DNA of 45,222 bases from contig CAKZSI010000003.1 in assembly GCA_937918935.1 (NCBI GenBank), positions 1 to 45,222 of the forward strand. The letters are read 5' to 3'. The DNA comes from an uncultured Chloroflexales bacterium (GTDB lineage Bacteria; Chloroflexota; Chloroflexia; Chloroflexales; Chloroflexaceae). Each line of letters starts with the position of its first letter. Within the stretch, counting starts at the first letter, position 1. Both the position numbers and the translations under genes were made by a program. This document shows, piece after piece, positions 18,663-27,114 of this stretch. The notes beneath the pieces are model-generated. The model had not been told where the DNA came from. It worked only from the letters and a program-made list of their open reading frames with translations, and did not search any database.

Positions 18663-19766
18663 TCACCGCAGACTTGCCTCTTGCGCCGCCTGACGCCCGC
18701 GCTCGGTGAGGGTGAGCACCGGCCCCGCGCGGCGCACCAGGCCGCCACGCTCGGCGCGGCGCACCACCTCCTCGGCGAAGTCGGCGCGCCAGCGCAGGTC
18801 ACTGCTCAGGTGGCGCAGGCTGCACTCCTCGCTGGCCTCGGCCGCCCCCTCGTGGTTCAACAGGTGCAACGCGAGCATCTGCTGAGCGAACTCCCAGCGC
18901 TGCCGCGCACGCCGGGCCGCGCCCGCCACTAACCCCCGCCCGGGCGCGAACAGCAGGCTCAGGCCAAATGCCACCCCGGTCATGCTCGCCATCGCCCCCC
19001 CGACCGAGACATCCAGCCAGTAGGCGGTCCAGTAGCCCGCGATGGTGCTCGCCGCGCCGATCAGCACGCTCAGCAGCAGCATGACCGGCAGGCGGTCGGT
19101 CAGCAGGTAGGCCGCCGCGGGGGGGGCGACCAGCAGCGCGATCACCAGGATTGACCCCACGGCGTCGAACGCCCCCACGGCCGTCACCGAGACCATGGTC
19201 ATCAGCCCGTAGTTGACCAGCGTGGGCGCGAAGCCCAGGGCCGCCGCCAGGCCGGGGTCGAAGCTGGTGAGCTTCAGTTCCTTGTAGAACAGTCCGATCA
19301 GCGCCAGGTTGATTGCCAGGCTGACTGCCCCGATCAGCAGCGCGCGCGGTACATCCAGCCCCAACAGCGTTACACGATCAAACGGCGCGAAGATCAGTTC
19401 GCCCAGCAGAACGCTGTCCAAGTCGAGATGGACGTTCCCGGCGTAACGCGAGATGAGGATTACCGCGATGCTGAACAGCGCCGGAAAGACGATGCCGATC
19501 GCCGCGTCTTCGCGCACCAGGCCGCTGCCACCCACCAGTTCCACCAGGGCGACGGTGATCACCCCCATCGCCACTGCGCCGACAAACAGCAGGGGCGAGC
19601 CCAGGGCGCCGCTGACGAAGTAGGCCAGCACGATGCCCAGCAGCACCGTATGGCTGATCGCGTCACTCAACATGGCCATGCGCCGCAGCACCAGAAACAC
19701 CCCTGGCAGCGCGCAGGCCGCGGCGACGATGACGGCGATGAGTTGTACTTCGAGTTCGGGAGACAT
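18663..19766 (-). CDS. Metal ABC transporter permease with C-terminal winged-helix domain
   Basis: A 367-residue member of the ABC-3 permease family (MntD/TroD/ZnuB). Residues 1-275 form eight to nine membrane segments with the family motifs RRMAMLSDAISHTVLLG and ELKLTSFDPGLAAALGF. After residue ~285 the chain is soluble: MLALHLLNHEGAAEASEECSLRHL and VVRRAERGGLVRRAGPVLTLTERGRQAA, which reads as a winged helix of the DtxR type. Such tails occur in some Mn/Fe permeases and could sense metal or regulate the channel, which is inference. The start at 19766 fits the family; the long in-frame upstream extension is non-coding repeat DNA. Last gene of the importer operon. Confidence 0.9.
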   Translation of the reverse strand: MSPELEVQLIAVIVAAACALPGVFLVLRRMAMLSDAISHTVLLGIVLAYFVSGALGSPLLFVGAVAMGVITVALVELVGGSGLVREDAAIGIVFPALFSIAVILISRYAGNVHLDLDSVLLGELIFAPFDRVTLLGLDVPRALLIGAVSLAINLALIGLFYKELKLTSFDPGLAAALGFAPTLVNYGLMTMVSVTAVGAFDAVGSILVIALLVAPPAAAYLLTDRLPVMLLLSVLIGAASTIAGYWTAYWLDVSVGGAMASMTGVAFGLSLLFAPGRGLVAGAARRARQRWEFAQQMLALHLLNHEGAAEASEECSLRHLSSDLRWRADFAEEVVRRAERGGLVRRAGPVLTLTERGRQAAQEASLR

Positions 19767-19778
19767 AGCTCTCGTGTT

Positions 19779-19830
19779 ACGGTGGTTGGAAGGCGGTGAA
19801 ACCTGGTTTCCCCGTGCCCCTGCCGGCGGG
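19779..19830 (+). repeat. Palindromic intergenic repeat, family A copy 3
   Basis: GTGAAACC-T-GGTTTCCCC then GTGCCCCTGCCGGCGGG, preceded by GGTTGGAAGGCG. Part of a tandem pair in the gap between the two permease genes. Confidence 0.75.
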
Positions 19831-19869
19831 TCTGGGAGCGAGCGGTCTTCCCAGGCGTCGGGCGCCCCG

Positions 19870-19918
19870 ACGGCGGTTGGAAGGTGGGGAAACCAGATTT
19901 CTTCGCGCTCCTGCCCCT
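19870..19918 (+). repeat. Palindromic intergenic repeat, family A copy 4
   Basis: GGTTGGAAGGTGGGGAAACC-A-GATTTCTTC, then GCGCTCCTGCCCC. It repeats copy 3, including the GGTTGGAAGG flank, about 90 bases on; the right arm has decayed. Confidence 0.65.
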
Positions 19919-19936
19919 CTTCTCGGTAGGCTGACC

Positions 19937-20827
19937 TTATTCCATCGGCGCGATCAGTTGCCGGCGCCGCCAGACCGACCACAGCAGACCCCGTTGCGGC
20001 GCCAGTAGCAGTGAGACCAGGGTGATCGCCGTCAGGCAGAGAACCACCGCGGGGCCAGTGGAAACGCCGCGCGCCGTGGCGCTGATCACCGCCCCGACCA
20101 CCCCGGCGCCGGCGCCGAATCCCGCCGCAAGCAGCACCATTGCGCTGAGGCGGTTGGTCCACTGGCGGGCCGCGGCCGCCGGGGCCACCAGCATCGCGCT
20201 CATCAGCACCACACCCACCGTTTGCAGGCCAGTGGCGATGGCCAGCACCATCAGGCTGGTCAGCAGCACGCTCAGGAAGGCGGTCGGCATCCCCAGGCTG
20301 GCGGCGTACTCCGGGTCGAAGCTAAGCAGCTTGAACTGCTTCCAGAGCAGGACCACGCACAGCAGGGCCGGTACGCCCAGCAGGGCCATCACCAGCAGAT
20401 CCTCTTCCACCAGCGCGGCCGCCTGCCCGAACAGAAAGGTCTTTAGCCCGGCCTGGGCCGCGTCGGGGTGTTTTTGCAGCGCCGATAGCAGCACCAGCCC
20501 GAAGCCGAAAAAGACCGCCAGGGTCATGGCCAGGGCGCTATCTTCCTTGACCCGGCTGGCTCGCGTGATGCCCAGGATCAGCAGTGCGGCCAGCCAGGCG
20601 GCAACCGTCGCGCCAATGAGCAGCACCAGCGGGTGGCGCTGGCCGGTGAGCCAGAACGCCAGGGCAATGCCGGGCAGGGCCGCGTGCGACATGGCGTCAC
20701 CCAGCAGGGCCTGGCGCCGCAGCACGGCGAAACAGCCGAGGACGCCGCTCACCACACCCAGCAGTGCCGCGCCCAGGGCGACGGTGCGCAAGGTATAGTC
20801 AGTGAAGAGAGCCGTCAGAGGTTCCAT
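19937..20827 (-). CDS. Metal ABC transporter permease
   Basis: A 296-residue ABC-3 family permease with about nine membrane segments. Family motifs are RRQALLGDAMSHAALPGIALAF near residue 40 and KQFKLLSFDPEYAASLGM in the cytoplasmic coupling loop. It pairs with the second permease downstream to form the channel of an Mn/Zn/Fe importer. It ends normally (no winged-helix tail), in contrast to its partner. The start at 20827 matches the family; an AAAGG stretch lies close upstream, so the ribosome site is poorly spaced. The gap to the ATPase gene is 86 bases. Confidence 0.9.
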   Translation of the reverse strand: MEPLTALFTDYTLRTVALGAALLGVVSGVLGCFAVLRRQALLGDAMSHAALPGIALAFWLTGQRHPLVLLIGATVAAWLAALLILGITRASRVKEDSALAMTLAVFFGFGLVLLSALQKHPDAAQAGLKTFLFGQAAALVEEDLLVMALLGVPALLCVVLLWKQFKLLSFDPEYAASLGMPTAFLSVLLTSLMVLAIATGLQTVGVVLMSAMLVAPAAAARQWTNRLSAMVLLAAGFGAGAGVVGAVISATARGVSTGPAVVLCLTAITLVSLLLAPQRGLLWSVWRRRQLIAPME

Positions 20828-20913
20828 ACCTTTGCCGAACGGGTCGGAACCGAATTGACCCGGGGAAAGCGGATCTTCCAGTCCCCCCAAAGAGACCGCA
20901 ATCCAGAATGATG

Positions 20914-21699
20914 TTAATCCGTTGCCGTAGAGAGGGTTTGTTCCTGGGCCTCCGAGAGCCGGTCCGCGCTCACCGGCCCGGGGAAAGCGATCCGCCCGCC
21001 GTAGGTGGCGCGCAGGTTGGCCTCGGTGAAGACCTCCCGCACCGGGCCGCTGGCAATGCGTCGCACATTGATCAGCGTGACCCAGTCGAAATACTCCGGT
21101 ACGGTCTGCAGATCGTGATGGACCACCACCACCGTGCGCCCGCGGGTGCGCAGGTCGCGCAGCAGGGCGACGATGGCCCGTTCGGTCACGGCGTCAACAC
21201 CCTGGAACGGCTCGTCCATGATGTAGATCTGCGCGTCCTGCACCAGGGCGCGGGCCAGGAAGACGCGCTGCTGCTGGCCGCCGGAGAGCTGGCTGATCTG
21301 GCGATGGGCGAATTCGGCCATGCGTACCTGTTCCAGGGCGGCGAGGGCCAGCGCGCGCTCGCGGGCGCCCGGGCGTCGGAACCAGCCCAGGTTGCCGTAG
21401 CGGCCCATCATCACCACATCGAGCACGGTCGTGGGAAAATCCCAATCCACACTGCCGCGCTGCGGCACATAGGCCACCAGGCGCCGCTGCTCGGCGTAGG
21501 GCCGCCCGAAGATCAACGTCTGCCCGGCGGCGGGGCGCACCAGCCCGAGGGCCGCCTTGATCAGCGTGGTCTTGCCCGCCCCATTCGGGCCGACGATGGC
21601 CATCAACACCCCGGCGGGCGCCCGTACATCGACATCCCAGAGCACGGGCCGGTCGTGGTAAGCCACGGTGAGATCGGTGATTTCAAGGGCAGGTAGCAT
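20914..21699 (-). CDS. Metal ABC transporter ATP-binding protein
   Basis: A 261-residue ATPase of the MntB/ZnuC/TroB group. Walker [11 protein letters not shown], signature [15 protein letters not shown], Walker [15 protein letters not shown]-loop VVVHHDL. The segment [26 protein letters not shown] is typical of manganese/zinc importers. AGGAG lies six bases before the ATG at 21699. The order binding protein, ATPase, permease, permease on one strand makes a complete importer. The gap of 191 bases to the binding-protein gene contains a family B hairpin. Confidence 0.93.
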
Positions 21700-21735
21700 C
21701 TGGAACTCCTGGTTCTGGTTGTACCTCTGCGATCG

Positions 21736-21758
21736 CTGGGAGGGCGCAGCCCTCCCAG
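21736..21758. repeat. GGGAGGGC/GCCCTCCC hairpin, family B
   Basis: Arms CTGGGAGGG and CCCTCCCAG around a short loop, in the gap between the binding-protein and ATPase genes of the metal importer. Confidence 0.65.
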
Positions 21759-21890
21759 ATCCGGAGTGTTCCGCCCACGGCGGCAGGCCTGTGCTTACTT
21801 CACCAGGGCGCGTGCCCGCTGCGGGCGGAACAGGGGAATTGCGGGCAGGCGCAGCCTCCCCGCGCCCCTTCAGGACAGTAACGGAATGTA

Positions 21891-22904
21891 TCACGATAAT
21901 GCTGTAGCCCTCTCAGCAAGATCCGTCATGGTGGTGCGCGGCGATGCCGCCTGGACGCCCAGCGCGGCGACAATCGTATCAATGTTGTGGCGCATCATGC
22001 CGATGTACGTCCCGGCTGGACCGTCCGGGGCGCCAGGGGCGTCGGAGTAGAGTTCGCCCCCCAGGGTCACTTCGCGTCCCGCGGCGCGCACGGCGGCGCG
22101 CACGGCTTCGATGGTGCGCGGCGAAATGGTGCTCTCCACGAAAATCGCCGGCACGCCGCGCGCGACGATGAGGCCGGTCAGAGCCTGGATATCGGCGGCG
22201 CTGGCTTCAGTGGCGCTGCTGATGCCCTGGATCGCCTCGACCTCGAAGCCGTAGGCTCGACCGAAGTAGCCAAAGGCGTCGTGGGCGGTCACAAGAATGC
22301 GCCGTTCGGGCGGCAGCGTTGCCGCATGCTCCCGAATGTAGGCGTCGAGTGCGTCGAGCTGCGCCAGGTACGCGGCAGCGCTGGCGCCATAGCGTTCGGC
22401 ATGGGTGGGGTCGGCGGCGATCAACGTGTCGCGGATGGCCTGCACCGCCTCCTGCCAGAGTTGCACATCGTGCCAGACGTGGGGATCATGGGTCTTGTCC
22501 GTTGCAGGCTCCCAACCGAGGAGTTTCTCGGCGGGGAGCGTTTCGGCAACCGCCACCACGGTGGCGGCGCCACGCTTGCCGAGTTGCCGCAGGATCCGTT
22601 CCAGTTGCGCCTCCAGATGCAGTCCGTTGTAGAAAATGACATCGGCGCGCTGAAAGGCGCGGACGTCGCTTTCGATGGCGACGTAGGTATGCGGGTCAAT
22701 GCCGGGACCGAGCAGTACCCGGAGTTCTACCGCATCGCCGGCAATGGCGCGCACTGCATCGCCGATTGGCCCGGTTGTGGCGACGACGCGCAGTTTCGGC
22801 CCTTCTTCCCCGGCTACGACACGGGCCCCGCCGCAGGCGGTGAGGGTCAGTGCAAGGAGCGCCAGCAGGCTCAGCCGGAACGGTTTCTGATGGCAAGCGT
22901 ACAT
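21891..22904 (-). CDS. Metal-binding lipoprotein of an Mn/Zn ABC importer (TroA/MntC/ZnuA family)
   Basis: A 337-residue cluster A-I solute-binding protein. The lipobox is LTAC (Cys24). Metal ligands by family comparison are His72 (DPHTY), His142 (DPHVWHD), His208 ([11 protein letters not shown]) and Asp288 (LYSDAPG). The third ligand is His, as in TroA and ZnuA, rather than the Glu of strict manganese proteins such as PsaA. There is no His-rich loop like that of many ZnuA proteins. So zinc or manganese are both possible. GGAGG lies at good spacing before the ATG at 22904. The DtxR-like operator upstream argues for manganese- or iron-responsive control. Confidence 0.92.
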
Positions 22905-22917
22905 GACCCACCTCCGC

Positions 22918-22993
22918 TCCCTCTCCCAACCTCCCTCCAACGGGGGAAGGAGCCGGATGGCCTTCCCCGGCGGGAGAGGTTTGGGGAGGGAGT
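22918..22993. repeat. Imperfect inverted repeat in the importer leader
   Basis: CTCCCTCTCCCAACCTCCCTC and a near-complement GGGAGAGGTTTGGGGAGGGAG flank an internal GGGGAAGGAGCC/GGCCTTCCCC hairpin. It would fold in the mRNA leader just ahead of the ribosome site of the binding-protein gene. Confidence 0.6.
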
Positions 22994-23944: not shown

Positions 23945-24059
23945 GTTCAGGTTTACCACAGAGCACGCAGAGGAACGGAGAGGACGAGCTTTGTAGGCCC
24001 TTTGCACCGCTCCGCGCGCGCTACGGTGTGGACAGGTTCGGTAGATGTGAACATTATCG
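23945..24059 (+). repeat. ~115-bp dispersed repeat, family C copy 2
   Basis: GTTCAGGTTTACCACAGAGC, then ACGCAGAGGAACG, later GCTACGGTGTGGACAGGTTC and GAACATTATCG. It matches 8595-8701 in order and spacing. Confidence 0.65.
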
Positions 24060-24141: not shown

Positions 24142-25773
24142 ATGTTTGAGGATAGCACGGAACGTTTCACCCCCCAGGAAACGGCGTTGTTAGCGCCGTT
24201 CGTGACCAATACCGATCGACCGATCTTCTGTCTGCGCAACCTGCCGGAGGTAGTCAAGGGCGCCCTCTTCTCGCGCTACAGCCGCAGCACCAGAAGCCTG
24301 CGGCGCCTTCTGCTCGACGAATTCATCAGCGCGCCGGAGTCCGGCTTCAACGCCCTTGTGGGCAGAGCCGGCGCCGACCCCGCCGCGCAACTGGTCGCCG
24401 CCAGGGAGGCCGAGGCCTTCTATGACCGGGTGCTTATCGGCTACGGCGACGACTCGGTGGCCGAACTCGGCGGCGCCCACATTGCCTGCGAGGGCGTGAG
24501 CAACATCGCCGCCAAACTGCTGGAAGACAGCCGCCTCGGGCTGTCACCGCTCGAGAAGTCCACCCGCTACGTTCGCTTCGACCTGCCGGGGCCCGATGGG
24601 TATGCTTACCTGCGCGAGCCTGCCCTCATGGCCTCGCCCTATGCTGCGCGCTTCACTACGGCGATGGACAACCTGTTCAGTACCTATGGCGCCCTGCTTG
24701 CCCCGGTGCAGACCTGGCTACAGGCGCAGTTTCCGCGCGATCCGGAGACATCGCAGCGCGCCCACGCGAGCGCCATCCGGGCCAAATCCTTCGACCTGCT
24801 GCGCGGTCTGTTGCCCATGGCCACTCGCACGAATGTAGGACTGTTCGGCAACGGCCGCGCCTTCGAATACCTGCTGATCAAGCTGGCTGCGGCGCCGTTC
24901 GCCGAGGCCCGGCAACTCGGCCAGGCGATGCAGGCCGAACTGGACCAGGTGATCCCCGCCTTCGTCAAGCGCGCCAGAAGCGAGCGTGGGCGCGAGTACG
25001 CGACCTACCTCGCCACGACCCGCGAGCGCGTGGCCGCCCGTGCCGCCCGACTGGACCTCCCCCGATCGTCGCAGGACGATGTGGCGGTTCGACTCGTTGA
25101 TTACGACCCCCGGGCCGAGATCAAGGCTGTGGCGGCAATGCTGTACCCGCACCTGGATGCACCGCTCACGACGGTGCAGGAAGCGGTTGCGGCCATGCCT
25201 GAGGCGGAGCGGATGGCGATCATCGAGGCCGCCATGAGCGAGCGCAAGACCCGTTTTCATCGCCCCGGGCGAGCCTTCGAGGAACCGTACTACACCTTCG
25301 ATATCCTGGCCGACATTGGCGCATACCGCGACCTGCAACGCCACCGTGTGCTCACCCAGGAGCGGCAGAGCTTTACGACGGAGCACGGCTTCGTTGTGCC
25401 GCCGGAACTGGAGGCCATCGGCGTGGCCCGGACGTACAGCGCCGCCCTGGAGCAGGCTGCCGAGGTGTTTGCAGCGATGCGGGCCGAGTTCCCGCACGAA
25501 GCCCAGTATGCCGTGCCGTTTGCCTTTCGGGTGCGCTGGCGCGTCAAGCTGAACCTGCGCGAAGCCTATCATCTCATCGAACTGCGCAGCGCACGCCAGG
25601 GGCACCCCGCGTATCGGAAGATCGCCCGGGCGATGTTTCACGAAATCAGTGCGGTACACCCGGCGCTGGCAAGGGGGATGCGTTTTGTCGATCAACACGA
25701 CTACGGCCTGGAGCGCCTCGCTGCCGAGCAGCGCCTCGACCAGAAGCGGCAGCGGGGGGATCAAACGGCATAG
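24142..25773 (+). CDS. Two-module ThyX-like (FAD-dependent thymidylate synthase family) protein
   Basis: A 543-residue protein, about twice the ThyX length, made of two ThyX-like halves. ThyX normally methylates dUMP with FAD and carries RHRxxSxxxxSxRY. The N-half has GDDSVAELGGAHIACEGVSN and then EDSRLGLSPLEKSTRYV (128-144): the S-x-RY end is kept but RHR is lost. The C-half has DLQRHRVLTQERQSFTTEHG (397-416): QRHR is kept but the S-x-RY end is lost. Each half also has the later LP...NxR region (LPMATRTNVGLFGNGRAFEYLL and YAVPFAFRVRWRVKLNLREAYHLIELR). Enzyme activity is uncertain. The start at 24142 has GGAG eight bases upstream. No folate or other nucleotide gene is adjacent. Confidence 0.82.
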   Translation: MFEDSTERFTPQETALLAPFVTNTDRPIFCLRNLPEVVKGALFSRYSRSTRSLRRLLLDEFISAPESGFNALVGRAGADPAAQLVAAREAEAFYDRVLIGYGDDSVAELGGAHIACEGVSNIAAKLLEDSRLGLSPLEKSTRYVRFDLPGPDGYAYLREPALMASPYAARFTTAMDNLFSTYGALLAPVQTWLQAQFPRDPETSQRAHASAIRAKSFDLLRGLLPMATRTNVGLFGNGRAFEYLLIKLAAAPFAEARQLGQAMQAELDQVIPAFVKRARSERGREYATYLATTRERVAARAARLDLPRSSQDDVAVRLVDYDPRAEIKAVAAMLYPHLDAPLTTVQEAVAAMPEAERMAIIEAAMSERKTRFHRPGRAFEEPYYTFDILADIGAYRDLQRHRVLTQERQSFTTEHGFVVPPELEAIGVARTYSAALEQAAEVFAAMRAEFPHEAQYAVPFAFRVRWRVKLNLREAYHLIELRSARQGHPAYRKIARAMFHEISAVHPALARGMRFVDQHDYGLERLAAEQRLDQKRQRGDQTA

Positions 25774-25871: not shown

Positions 25872-26717
25872 TCACGGCGAACCTGCCTCGTCGTGTGGCA
25901 GGGTGTGGGCCAGTTCTTCCGCGGGCCGCGTGCCGTTGGTTCCCTCCTCGCTCTGCGTCGCGTACTCCTGCGCCCAGAGCTGAATACTCTCCCAGTCGCG
26001 CAGGGCAGCGGTGTGAACGTTGTCGGGTCGCCAGACGCCCCGCAGGTACTCGGCGTCGATCGTGGCGGGGTGCATGCTGCGGAATGGCACCACCGACGCG
26101 GTCTCGCCCTTGCCCCATTCCTCCTCCTCGCCCGGGCCGAGCGGCAGGGCTATCTCGTGGTAGGTTACCTCCTCGGGGTGCCGCGAGCGATCTACCAGGC
26201 TGTCGGCGGCCTCGCAGACCCGCCCGTGATCGATCAAGGCCGCCAGGAGCACATCGGTCATACGGCTGCGCACCGAGAGTTGCACCAGGCGCAGGTAGCC
26301 GACCCGCGCCAGGGCATCCAGATAGCCGCGAATCGCCAGCCGGCTGCGCTCGCCCTGACCCCAGCGCACCCCAATGCCGGCCTCGGCAGTGCGTTGCCGG
26401 TTGCGCCCGCTCAGACTGCCCGCCACGGTTGAAGCGACCGGCCCGCTGGTCACCGGGTAGAAGCGGATGTGTTCGCCCAGCCCCCAGTGTCTCACCACTT
26501 CGGCGCCTCCCTGGCGCTGGTGCTTGATCTCAATCTGTCCGACCCTGGCCGCCCGCATCGCCTCGTCGAGTTCCGCATCCCTGCCTGCCTCAACGTGAAA
26601 GCCAACGTAGGGCGCGAAGCGGCCCGCCCCGAGGCTGGCCCGGGCCAGGCTCTTGCCGTTCGCGTATTGGAGGATCACAACGTCCTGGGTGCTCTGGATG
26701 CGGTTTCTGCCGATCAT
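25872..26717 (-). CDS. Unrecognised 281-residue protein
   Basis: I do not recognise this protein. It has no signal peptide or membrane segment. It begins MIGRNRIQSTQDVVILQYAN. The centre is basic with mixed beta/alpha pattern (RLAIRGYLDALARVGYLRLV) and a Gly/Arg-rich loop (SLSGRNRQRTAEAGIGVRWG). The C-terminal third is strongly acidic with GPGEEEEWGKGE and an EEG-rich tail. The alternation of a basic core with an acidic, flexible tail is reminiscent of single-strand DNA handling proteins, but I have no motif to support that. The start at 26717 has AGGAG eight bases upstream, and a TAGACG-N17-TAAAAT promoter lies above it, so expression is likely. Confidence 0.7.
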   Translation of the reverse strand: MIGRNRIQSTQDVVILQYANGKSLARASLGAGRFAPYVGFHVEAGRDAELDEAMRAARVGQIEIKHQRQGGAEVVRHWGLGEHIRFYPVTSGPVASTVAGSLSGRNRQRTAEAGIGVRWGQGERSRLAIRGYLDALARVGYLRLVQLSVRSRMTDVLLAALIDHGRVCEAADSLVDRSRHPEEVTYHEIALPLGPGEEEEWGKGETASVVPFRSMHPATIDAEYLRGVWRPDNVHTAALRDWESIQLWAQEYATQSEEGTNGTRPAEELAHTLPHDEAGSP

Positions 26718-26812
26718 CACTGCGCTCCTGATCCGAACCGGATCGGTATCGTGGATGGGCAAAGGCTGCGCCGAACCCTTCGCCCGACGGGCAGGAAAGC
26801 TGGCGCCGATGC

Positions 26813-26841
26813 ATTTTAGCACATATGTTCTTTTTCGTCTA
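26813..26841 (-). promoter_or_regulatory. Putative promoter of the unknown gene at 26717
   Basis: Minus strand TAGACG, 17 bases, TAAAAT; leader about 89 bases. Confidence 0.5.
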
Positions 26842-27021
26842 CACCTCGCTGCAACAATCCCGGGGCTGTTGCAACCTCTACCTCCGTCGGAGGGACGGGG
26901 GCAGTGTAGCCGACCGATATGGTCCTGCTTCCGAAACACCCCGGGTCCAGGGCGCGCAACGGCCCTGGAGCAAATCCAGAGCCCGTGCGTTGCATACACT
27001 CTGAATTGGCTGGCAATGGGC

Positions 27022-27050
27022 TTGACGCGCGGGCTACCCCTTGCTATACT
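27022..27050 (+). promoter_or_regulatory. Sigma-70 type promoter of the gene at 27115
   Basis: TTGACG, 17 bases, TATACT; leader about 58 bases. One of the best promoter matches in the window. Confidence 0.75.
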
Positions 27051-27114
27051 TAGCACATCTGAGCTACCATTACAAATGTACTACTCTGTGGCGCCCGCGA
27101 GAGGAGGAACAACA

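Follow-up and report, generated by a model that had tools for sequence, protein, structure and literature searches.

ThyX stands out among essential enzymes, and serves as a drug target, because three subunits build each of its active sites. The canonical ThyX, or flavin-dependent thymidylate synthase (FDTS; Thermotoga maritima TM0449 and Mycobacterium tuberculosis ThyX, PF02511 and TIGR02170), is a homotetramer of approximately 220-residue chains with four equal sites, and carries RHR and S-x-RY in one and the same chain. In the present study we analyzed P0001, a double-length ThyX-like gene of an uncultured Chloroflexales bacterium, which lies in a window of 45,222 nucleotides (the whole stretch of DNA analyzed, from contig CAKZSI010000003.1). 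Its 543-residue product is predicted to share the canonical fold in both halves but has the active-site residues divided between them. Judged from its sequence, P0001 very probably is the thymidylate synthase of the host bacterium, a duplicated and fused ThyX with an active site divided between the halves, and flavin and nucleotide most likely would be bound by different halves within a common site.

The ThyX of Chlamydia trachomatis, with about 530 residues, is possibly double-length as well. This enzyme was assayed for oxidation of reduced nicotinamide adenine dinucleotide phosphate (PMC3498832) and served as the positive control in an Escherichia coli complementation (PMC9931769). If it belongs to the double-length type, the activity of this type has already been proven. 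A duplication of ThyX in Chloroflexi was mentioned, uncharacterized, by Valas and Bourne 2009 (PMC3224940), and P0001 is of the same kind; the consulted part of that paper contains nothing on a complementary loss of catalytic residues or on a composite site. The thymidylate synthase of Microcystis phages (phrog_36506; 491 aa in Ma-LMM01) is double-length with S-x-RY in its N-half and RHR in its C-half, like P0001, although the two proteins are only about 20% identical and the phage protein retains H53 and differs at the R80 position and in the linker. No report of a complementary split of ThyX active-site residues was found in searches of an open-access library; the duplication is already known, and the division of the active site between the halves appears to be unreported in the open-access literature searched.

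According to a review, the RHR that serves flavin adenine dinucleotide (FAD) in a ThyX site belongs to subunit A, S71 and R190 (T55 and R165 in T. maritima) belong to subunit B, and the contacts to deoxyuridine monophosphate (dUMP) come from subunit A (R95 and R199, equivalent to R78 and R174) and from subunit C (R87, S105, R107 and the lid residue Y108, the last three equivalent to S88, R90 and Y91) (PMC6514825). The FAD and dUMP sites are thus assembled from several subunits, as the sequence-only reading of this locus had stated. In addition, T. maritima S30 contacts the flavin in the dUMP complex, H53 stacks on flavin or folate (PMC11940539), and the tetramer has 222 symmetry (PMC3498832). 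The reference numbering used below was checked on the T. maritima and M. tuberculosis sequences, roles A, B and C denote the subunits named in the review, and fractions of 90 refer to the double-length homologues described further below. The relevant features of P0001 are as follows.

24142..25773, + strand: P0001, double-length ThyX-like gene (543 aa plus stop)
24217..24996, + strand: ThyX domain at the N-terminus (residues 26-285), predicted to be the nucleotide half (AlphaFold2 [AF2] model, structural match)
24280..24282, + strand: S47, equivalent to T. maritima S30 (equivalence by eye); S in 154/154 doubles
24448..24456, + strand: D103-D104-S105, with D103 at the H53 position and S105 at the T55 position (role B); S in 90/90
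24526..24534, + strand: D129-S130-R131 where RHR is expected (translation, alignment)
24544..24573, + strand: S135-V144, SPLEKSTRYV, with S140, R142 and Y143 equivalent to S88, R90 and Y91 (role C); kept in 90, 90 and 87 (plus 3 F) of 90
24802..24804, + strand: R221, equivalent to R147; 90/90
24850..24858, + strand: N237-G-R239, equivalent to N163 and R165 (role B); R at the R165 position in 79/90 N-halves
24880..24882, + strand: K247 at the N-half R174 position; K in 53 and R in 33 of 90
25078..25701, + strand: ThyX domain at the C-terminus (residues 313-520), predicted to be the flavin half (AF2 model, structural match)
25270..25272, + strand: R377 at the C-half T55 position; R in 86/90
25336..25347, + strand: Q399-R400-H401-R402, RHR intact (role A); R78 in 90, H79 in 90 and R80 in 88 of 90
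25552..25560, + strand: N471-L-R473, C-half equivalents of N163 and R165 (alignment)
25585..25587, + strand: R482, equivalent to R174 (role A); 90/90

The sequence-only reading had proposed that the classic RHRxxSxxxxSxRY motif is split between the halves, and both parts of this proposal were borne out: translation places DSR instead of RHR upstream of the SPLEKSTRYV segment in the N-half, while the C-half has QRHR at residues 399-402 and, by translation and alignment, no S-x-RY. A continuous RHR-x7-S-x-RY within a single domain, which characterizes the canonical enzyme, occurs in neither half. The split extends beyond this one motif: in the C-half, R377 and Q455 stand where T55 and R147 would be, and in the N-half R78, H79 and R174 are replaced by D, S and K, respectively. 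Added together, the two halves supply the active-site residues of canonical ThyX, whose site is made from several subunits, as is predicted for P0001. The C-half holds the role-A set and the N-half holds the role-B serine (S71 position) and the S-x-RY part of role C; hence, the split follows the published subunit roles.

In the family comparison, 90 distinct double-length proteins (82 chromosomal, 5 plasmid, 3 phage) were aligned by halves to T. maritima and M. tuberculosis ThyX. They derive from 92 selected open reading frames (ORFs) of at least 400 aa after removal of two single ThyX, L034 with its long insert and L108 in its long frame; 5 of 10 plasmid and 3 of 14 phage records were taken, and shorter pieces such as G126 and G247 stayed outside the alignment. 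All 90 N-halves have a serine at the T55 position together with S88, R90 and R147, and Y91 is present in 87 and replaced by F in 3, whereas R78 is replaced (by D in 56) and H79 is replaced in most. Conversely, R78, H79 and R174 are present in all 90 C-halves and R80 in 88, the T55 position is occupied by R in 86, and S88, Y91 and R147 are replaced in most. When the comparison was widened to 154 doubles, eight of the 543 P0001 positions were invariant (S47, R48, S105, S140, R142, R400, H401 and R482), six of which are catalytic positions, each in the half predicted by its role. The 154 include 64 distinct IMG/VR proteins whose retrieval patterns already contained RHR, S-x-RY and some of the T55 region; among these 64, search-pattern bias is absent only for R147 (63/64), R174 (64/64 C-halves) and the S30 position.

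A half with both motifs intact, the finding that would have spoken against a divided site, was absent from P0001 and from 78 of the 79 chromosomal homologues outside family f28, in whose N-halves both R78 and H79 are gone, and was encountered, complete or almost complete, in the N-half of f28 (L090-L092). Among the C-halves, [ST]xR[YF] follows RHR at a distance of 5-22 residues in only 1 of 154 (L095). These counts also bear on the possibility that a single half is catalytic and the other is a structural or regulatory pseudo-enzyme that gives no residues to the working site. Residues are missing from each half and substitutes for them are conceivable in one, and the f28 N-half has the full motif in L090 and L092; however, neither half of the main family has the full residue set, and the residues that are kept are complementary and invariant rather than decaying, which makes this explanation highly improbable. 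Decay of one half is ruled out by the invariance of the residues assigned to each. As a control, 20 ORFs of single ThyX were listed (L029 and L033 not among them), 16 of which have the full motif, the other four being three contig-end fragments and the full-length L118.

The predicted structure is in line with two ThyX-like halves. AF2 modeled full-length P0001 with a predicted local distance difference test score (pLDDT) of 86.9 and a predicted template modeling score (pTM) of 0.87, and residues 1-306 alone with a pLDDT of 85.1 and a pTM of 0.83. In VIA-align the C-domain model matched T. maritima ThyX (3g4a_B) with Z 17.7 and a root-mean-square deviation (rmsd) of 2.3 over 191 aligned positions, and the best match of the N-domain model was M. 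tuberculosis ThyX (3gwc_B; Z 13.1, rmsd 4.3, 198 aligned), with ThyX entries down to Z 9.4 and the first unrelated entry at 4.6. Both halves of P0001 are therefore predicted to adopt the ThyX fold. Against the predicted models of two phage doubles, the full-length model aligned over approximately 520-531 columns with TMq 0.61 and 0.58, compared to about 0.32 against single ThyX chains; the corresponding rmsd values of 8.5 and 13.4 indicate that the domain arrangement is only partly shared. None of the 23 distinct Protein Data Bank sequences matched by the family profile (lengths 216-270) is a double-length ThyX.

From these observations a model of the site can be proposed in which two chains would form a pseudo-tetramer. 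A C-half would supply RHR and R174, the flavin and substrate arginines of role A, to each live site, and the N-halves would supply the serine at the T55 position (role B) as well as S88, R90 and Y91, the nucleotide pocket and lid of role C. With 222 symmetry the four sites would be (A,B,C), (B,A,D), (C,D,A) and (D,C,B). When C-halves are put at A and D and N-halves at B and C, every assigned residue would be present in (A,B,C) and (D,C,B), and the remaining two sites would be dead. An arrangement with C-halves as A and B would leave the site without the role-B serine (R in 86 of 90 C-halves), and in this way the sequence predicts the subunit arrangement. The enzyme would then methylate dUMP via flavin as in ordinary ThyX, whose reaction (EC 2.1.1.148) depends on FAD and NAD(P)H, and bind about one FAD and one dUMP per chain.

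The source genome (4.6 Mb, 99.99% complete) contains P0001 as its only PF02511 gene, and profile searches of it found neither PF00303 (ThyA) nor PF00186 (dihydrofolate reductase), which answers the question, raised with the original observation, of another thyA or thyX: P0001 is the sole thymidylate synthase recognized by the PF02511 and PF00303 searches. Relatives in named assemblies belong to Chloroflexus and other Chloroflexota. Among 41 near-relative genomes, a double ThyX occurs in 19, a single-domain type in 6 and a PF00303 gene in 12, 4 have none of these, and no genome combines two of the three kinds. An even sample of 301 Chloroflexota genomes contains 128 with a match to P0001, and 99 of these by hand count carry the double-length gene; the 99 include G126, where the gene is spread over two contigs, G277, where a contig end truncates it, and G152 and G174, where it has in-frame stops, and exclude G247 (a 127-aa fragment). 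A PF00303 match was found in 5 of these 99 genomes compared to 49 of the 202 others (Fisher p 2e-5, uncorrected for relatedness).

Genome G016, which has a ThyA-like gene instead of the double, contains a 31-residue remnant of a double-ThyX C-terminus (L245, G016:C245:13411-13503), perhaps the trace of a gene replacement. The ThyA-like genes L242, L243 and L244 of the same family (in G008, G009 and G016) are frames of approximately 490-600 residues with a long N-terminal part, of which PF00303 covers only about profile positions 88-257.

Several observations weigh against a working composite thymidylate synthase. The H53 position is D in the N-half of P0001 (D in 47, H in 42 and E in 1 of the N-halves) and P in its C-half, R165 of role B is present in both P0001 halves, R87 of role C (M. 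tuberculosis numbering) is R in just 20 of 90 N-halves, and arginine persists at the R80 position of 66 and at the R174 position of 33 of the 90 N-halves. Single-domain ThyX without RHR exist (L029 with T-H-K, L033 and L034 with K-H-I, L220 with K-Y-R), and loss of RHR alone is therefore no proof of a composite site. P0001 scores 59.7 bits against the NCBIfam ThyX equivalog TIGR02170, below its cut-off of 87.9, one thymidine kinase in the source genome makes salvage possible, and PF00303 matches, all partial (E 1e-10 to 3e-15), stand beside the double in G112, G126, G196, G271 and G305. The TIGR02170 score, the D at H53, the thymidine kinase and the breakage of both canonical motifs would also fit a protein that has abandoned thymidylate synthesis and catalyzes a different flavin reaction, as the sequence-only reading had considered, for example the modification of another nucleotide; the Streptomyces ThyX paralogue PolB also methylates uridine monophosphate (PMC5954106). 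However, P0001 is the only recognized thymidylate synthase of its genome, the double never occurs beside a ThyA-like gene or a single ThyX in the 41 relatives, and the residues of both the dUMP and the flavin site are invariant across the family. Since no other thymidylate synthase was found in the genome, a different function was rejected as a reading of P0001, and we regard it as highly improbable. Of the two possibilities raised originally, departure from thymidylate synthesis thus was not supported, whereas the composite site is strongly favored by the division of residues according to published subunit role, the ThyX fold predicted for both halves and the status of P0001 as sole recognized thymidylate synthase.

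With regard to the single-domain forms that deviate from RHR, L033 (G031) and L034 (G037) are single-type ThyX of family f2, and L034 has an intein-like insert of about 370 residues immediately before S-G-R-Y. An intein in a cyanobacterial thyX has reportedly been described. L029 (G021) adjoins a dCTP-deaminase-like frame with an intein-like insert (by eye), and the single ThyX of family f57 (L220-L226) have about 40 extra residues between the RHR site (K-Y-R in L220) and S-R-R-Y.

The P0001 frame extends open upstream as far as a GTG at 24028, and the matches of relatives begin at the ATG at 24142. A Pfam scan of the protein found one family alone, Thy1 (PF02511), in two stretches (whole-protein E 7.2e-42) and no PF00303 domain. 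The whole protein reaches 143.8 bits against the PF02511 cut-off of 24.8, which both halves also exceed separately (83.5 and 57.1 bits), with E 1.7e-23 over profile positions 1-191 for the C-half and E 2.1e-15 over 34-190 for the N-half. The ratio of nonsynonymous to synonymous substitution rates (dN/dS) is 0.105 when P0001 is compared with its closest relative (0.084 in the N-half and 0.131 in the C-half) and 0.13 for the next (0.085 and 0.207), indicating purifying selection. An artefact of sequencing, assembly or frame, or a decaying pseudogene, has a negligible probability in view of the open frame, the dN/dS of about 0.1 and the recurrence of this architecture across many independently assembled genomes, some of them consisting of a single contig. 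Since 90 distinct homologues share the split and purifying selection acts on the gene, the split lies well beyond chance, which is thereby ruled out.

Moreover, plasmids recorded under Parabacteroides, Miltoncostaea, Euzebya, Paenibacillus and Bacillus encode double-length forms, and so do phages of Tunturiibacter, Vibrio and Microcystis; the 64 IMG/VR proteins are further double-length forms. The finding is real and broader than the sequence-only reading could know, with a working thymidylate synthase with a composite, divided site as its best reading. In trees of the halves, the N-halves of the main family form one clade and the C-halves another (support 100 each, f28 included), which favors one duplication for this family. 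In f28 (L090-L092) the N-half has RHRLAAYTQHSGRY (QHR in L091) and the C-half has RHR alone; judging by these motifs, f28 looks like a stage where only the C-half had given up its share. It is basal among N-halves with a support of just 73 and 80 in two trees, and its C-half is placed, depending on the tree, as sister to all other C-halves or together with the plasmid-borne forms of Bacillus and Paenibacillus. In a second type (f5, f7 and f41; L210-L213, L218, L219), the N-half keeps SQRY but has HHH or HSH, and the C-half has RHR without S-x-RY. This type was found in six genomes via PF02511 and not through the P0001 matches listed, also for the two representatives that the P0001 scan listing contains. 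Its halves fall outside the main N and C clades in the maximum likelihood tree, and a tree constrained to one origin of both types is not rejected (p-AU, approximately unbiased test, 0.448). This very divergent type has possibly acquired the same division independently.

Tentatively, the duplicated ThyX may have become obligately asymmetric, the C-half first losing nucleotide binding (compare f28) and then the N-half flavin binding, to leave two working and two blocked sites in each pseudo-tetramer, with the same, possibly independent, division in f5, f7 and f41; an acid-arginine pair D129-R377 may lock the flavin place of the blocked sites in some lineages. An acid at 129 and a base at 377 occur together in 28 of 76 representatives (acid alone in 7, base alone in 20, neither in 21), a weak co-occurrence (Fisher p 0.008, uncorrected for relatedness).

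Upstream of P0001, the minus strand at 18663-22937 encodes a ZnuA-like binding protein, an ABC ATPase and two ABC-3 permeases; this is a zinc or manganese uptake operon of the zinc-type ABC transporters, not a nucleotide gene. The neighboring frame at 25872-27053 (minus strand) had no match in the Pfam scan.

A natural family with the flavin and nucleotide parts on two covalently joined domains would offer a direct test of the three-subunit-site model of ThyX. It would let either part be mutated separately, and its subunit arrangement is predictable from sequence alone. The divided ThyX would also show clearly how the two copies of a duplicated essential enzyme can undergo complementary losses. 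Finally, it corrects the annotation of a gene that is present in about a third of the sampled Chloroflexota genomes and in jumbo phages, and that a search for the ThyX motif would miss.
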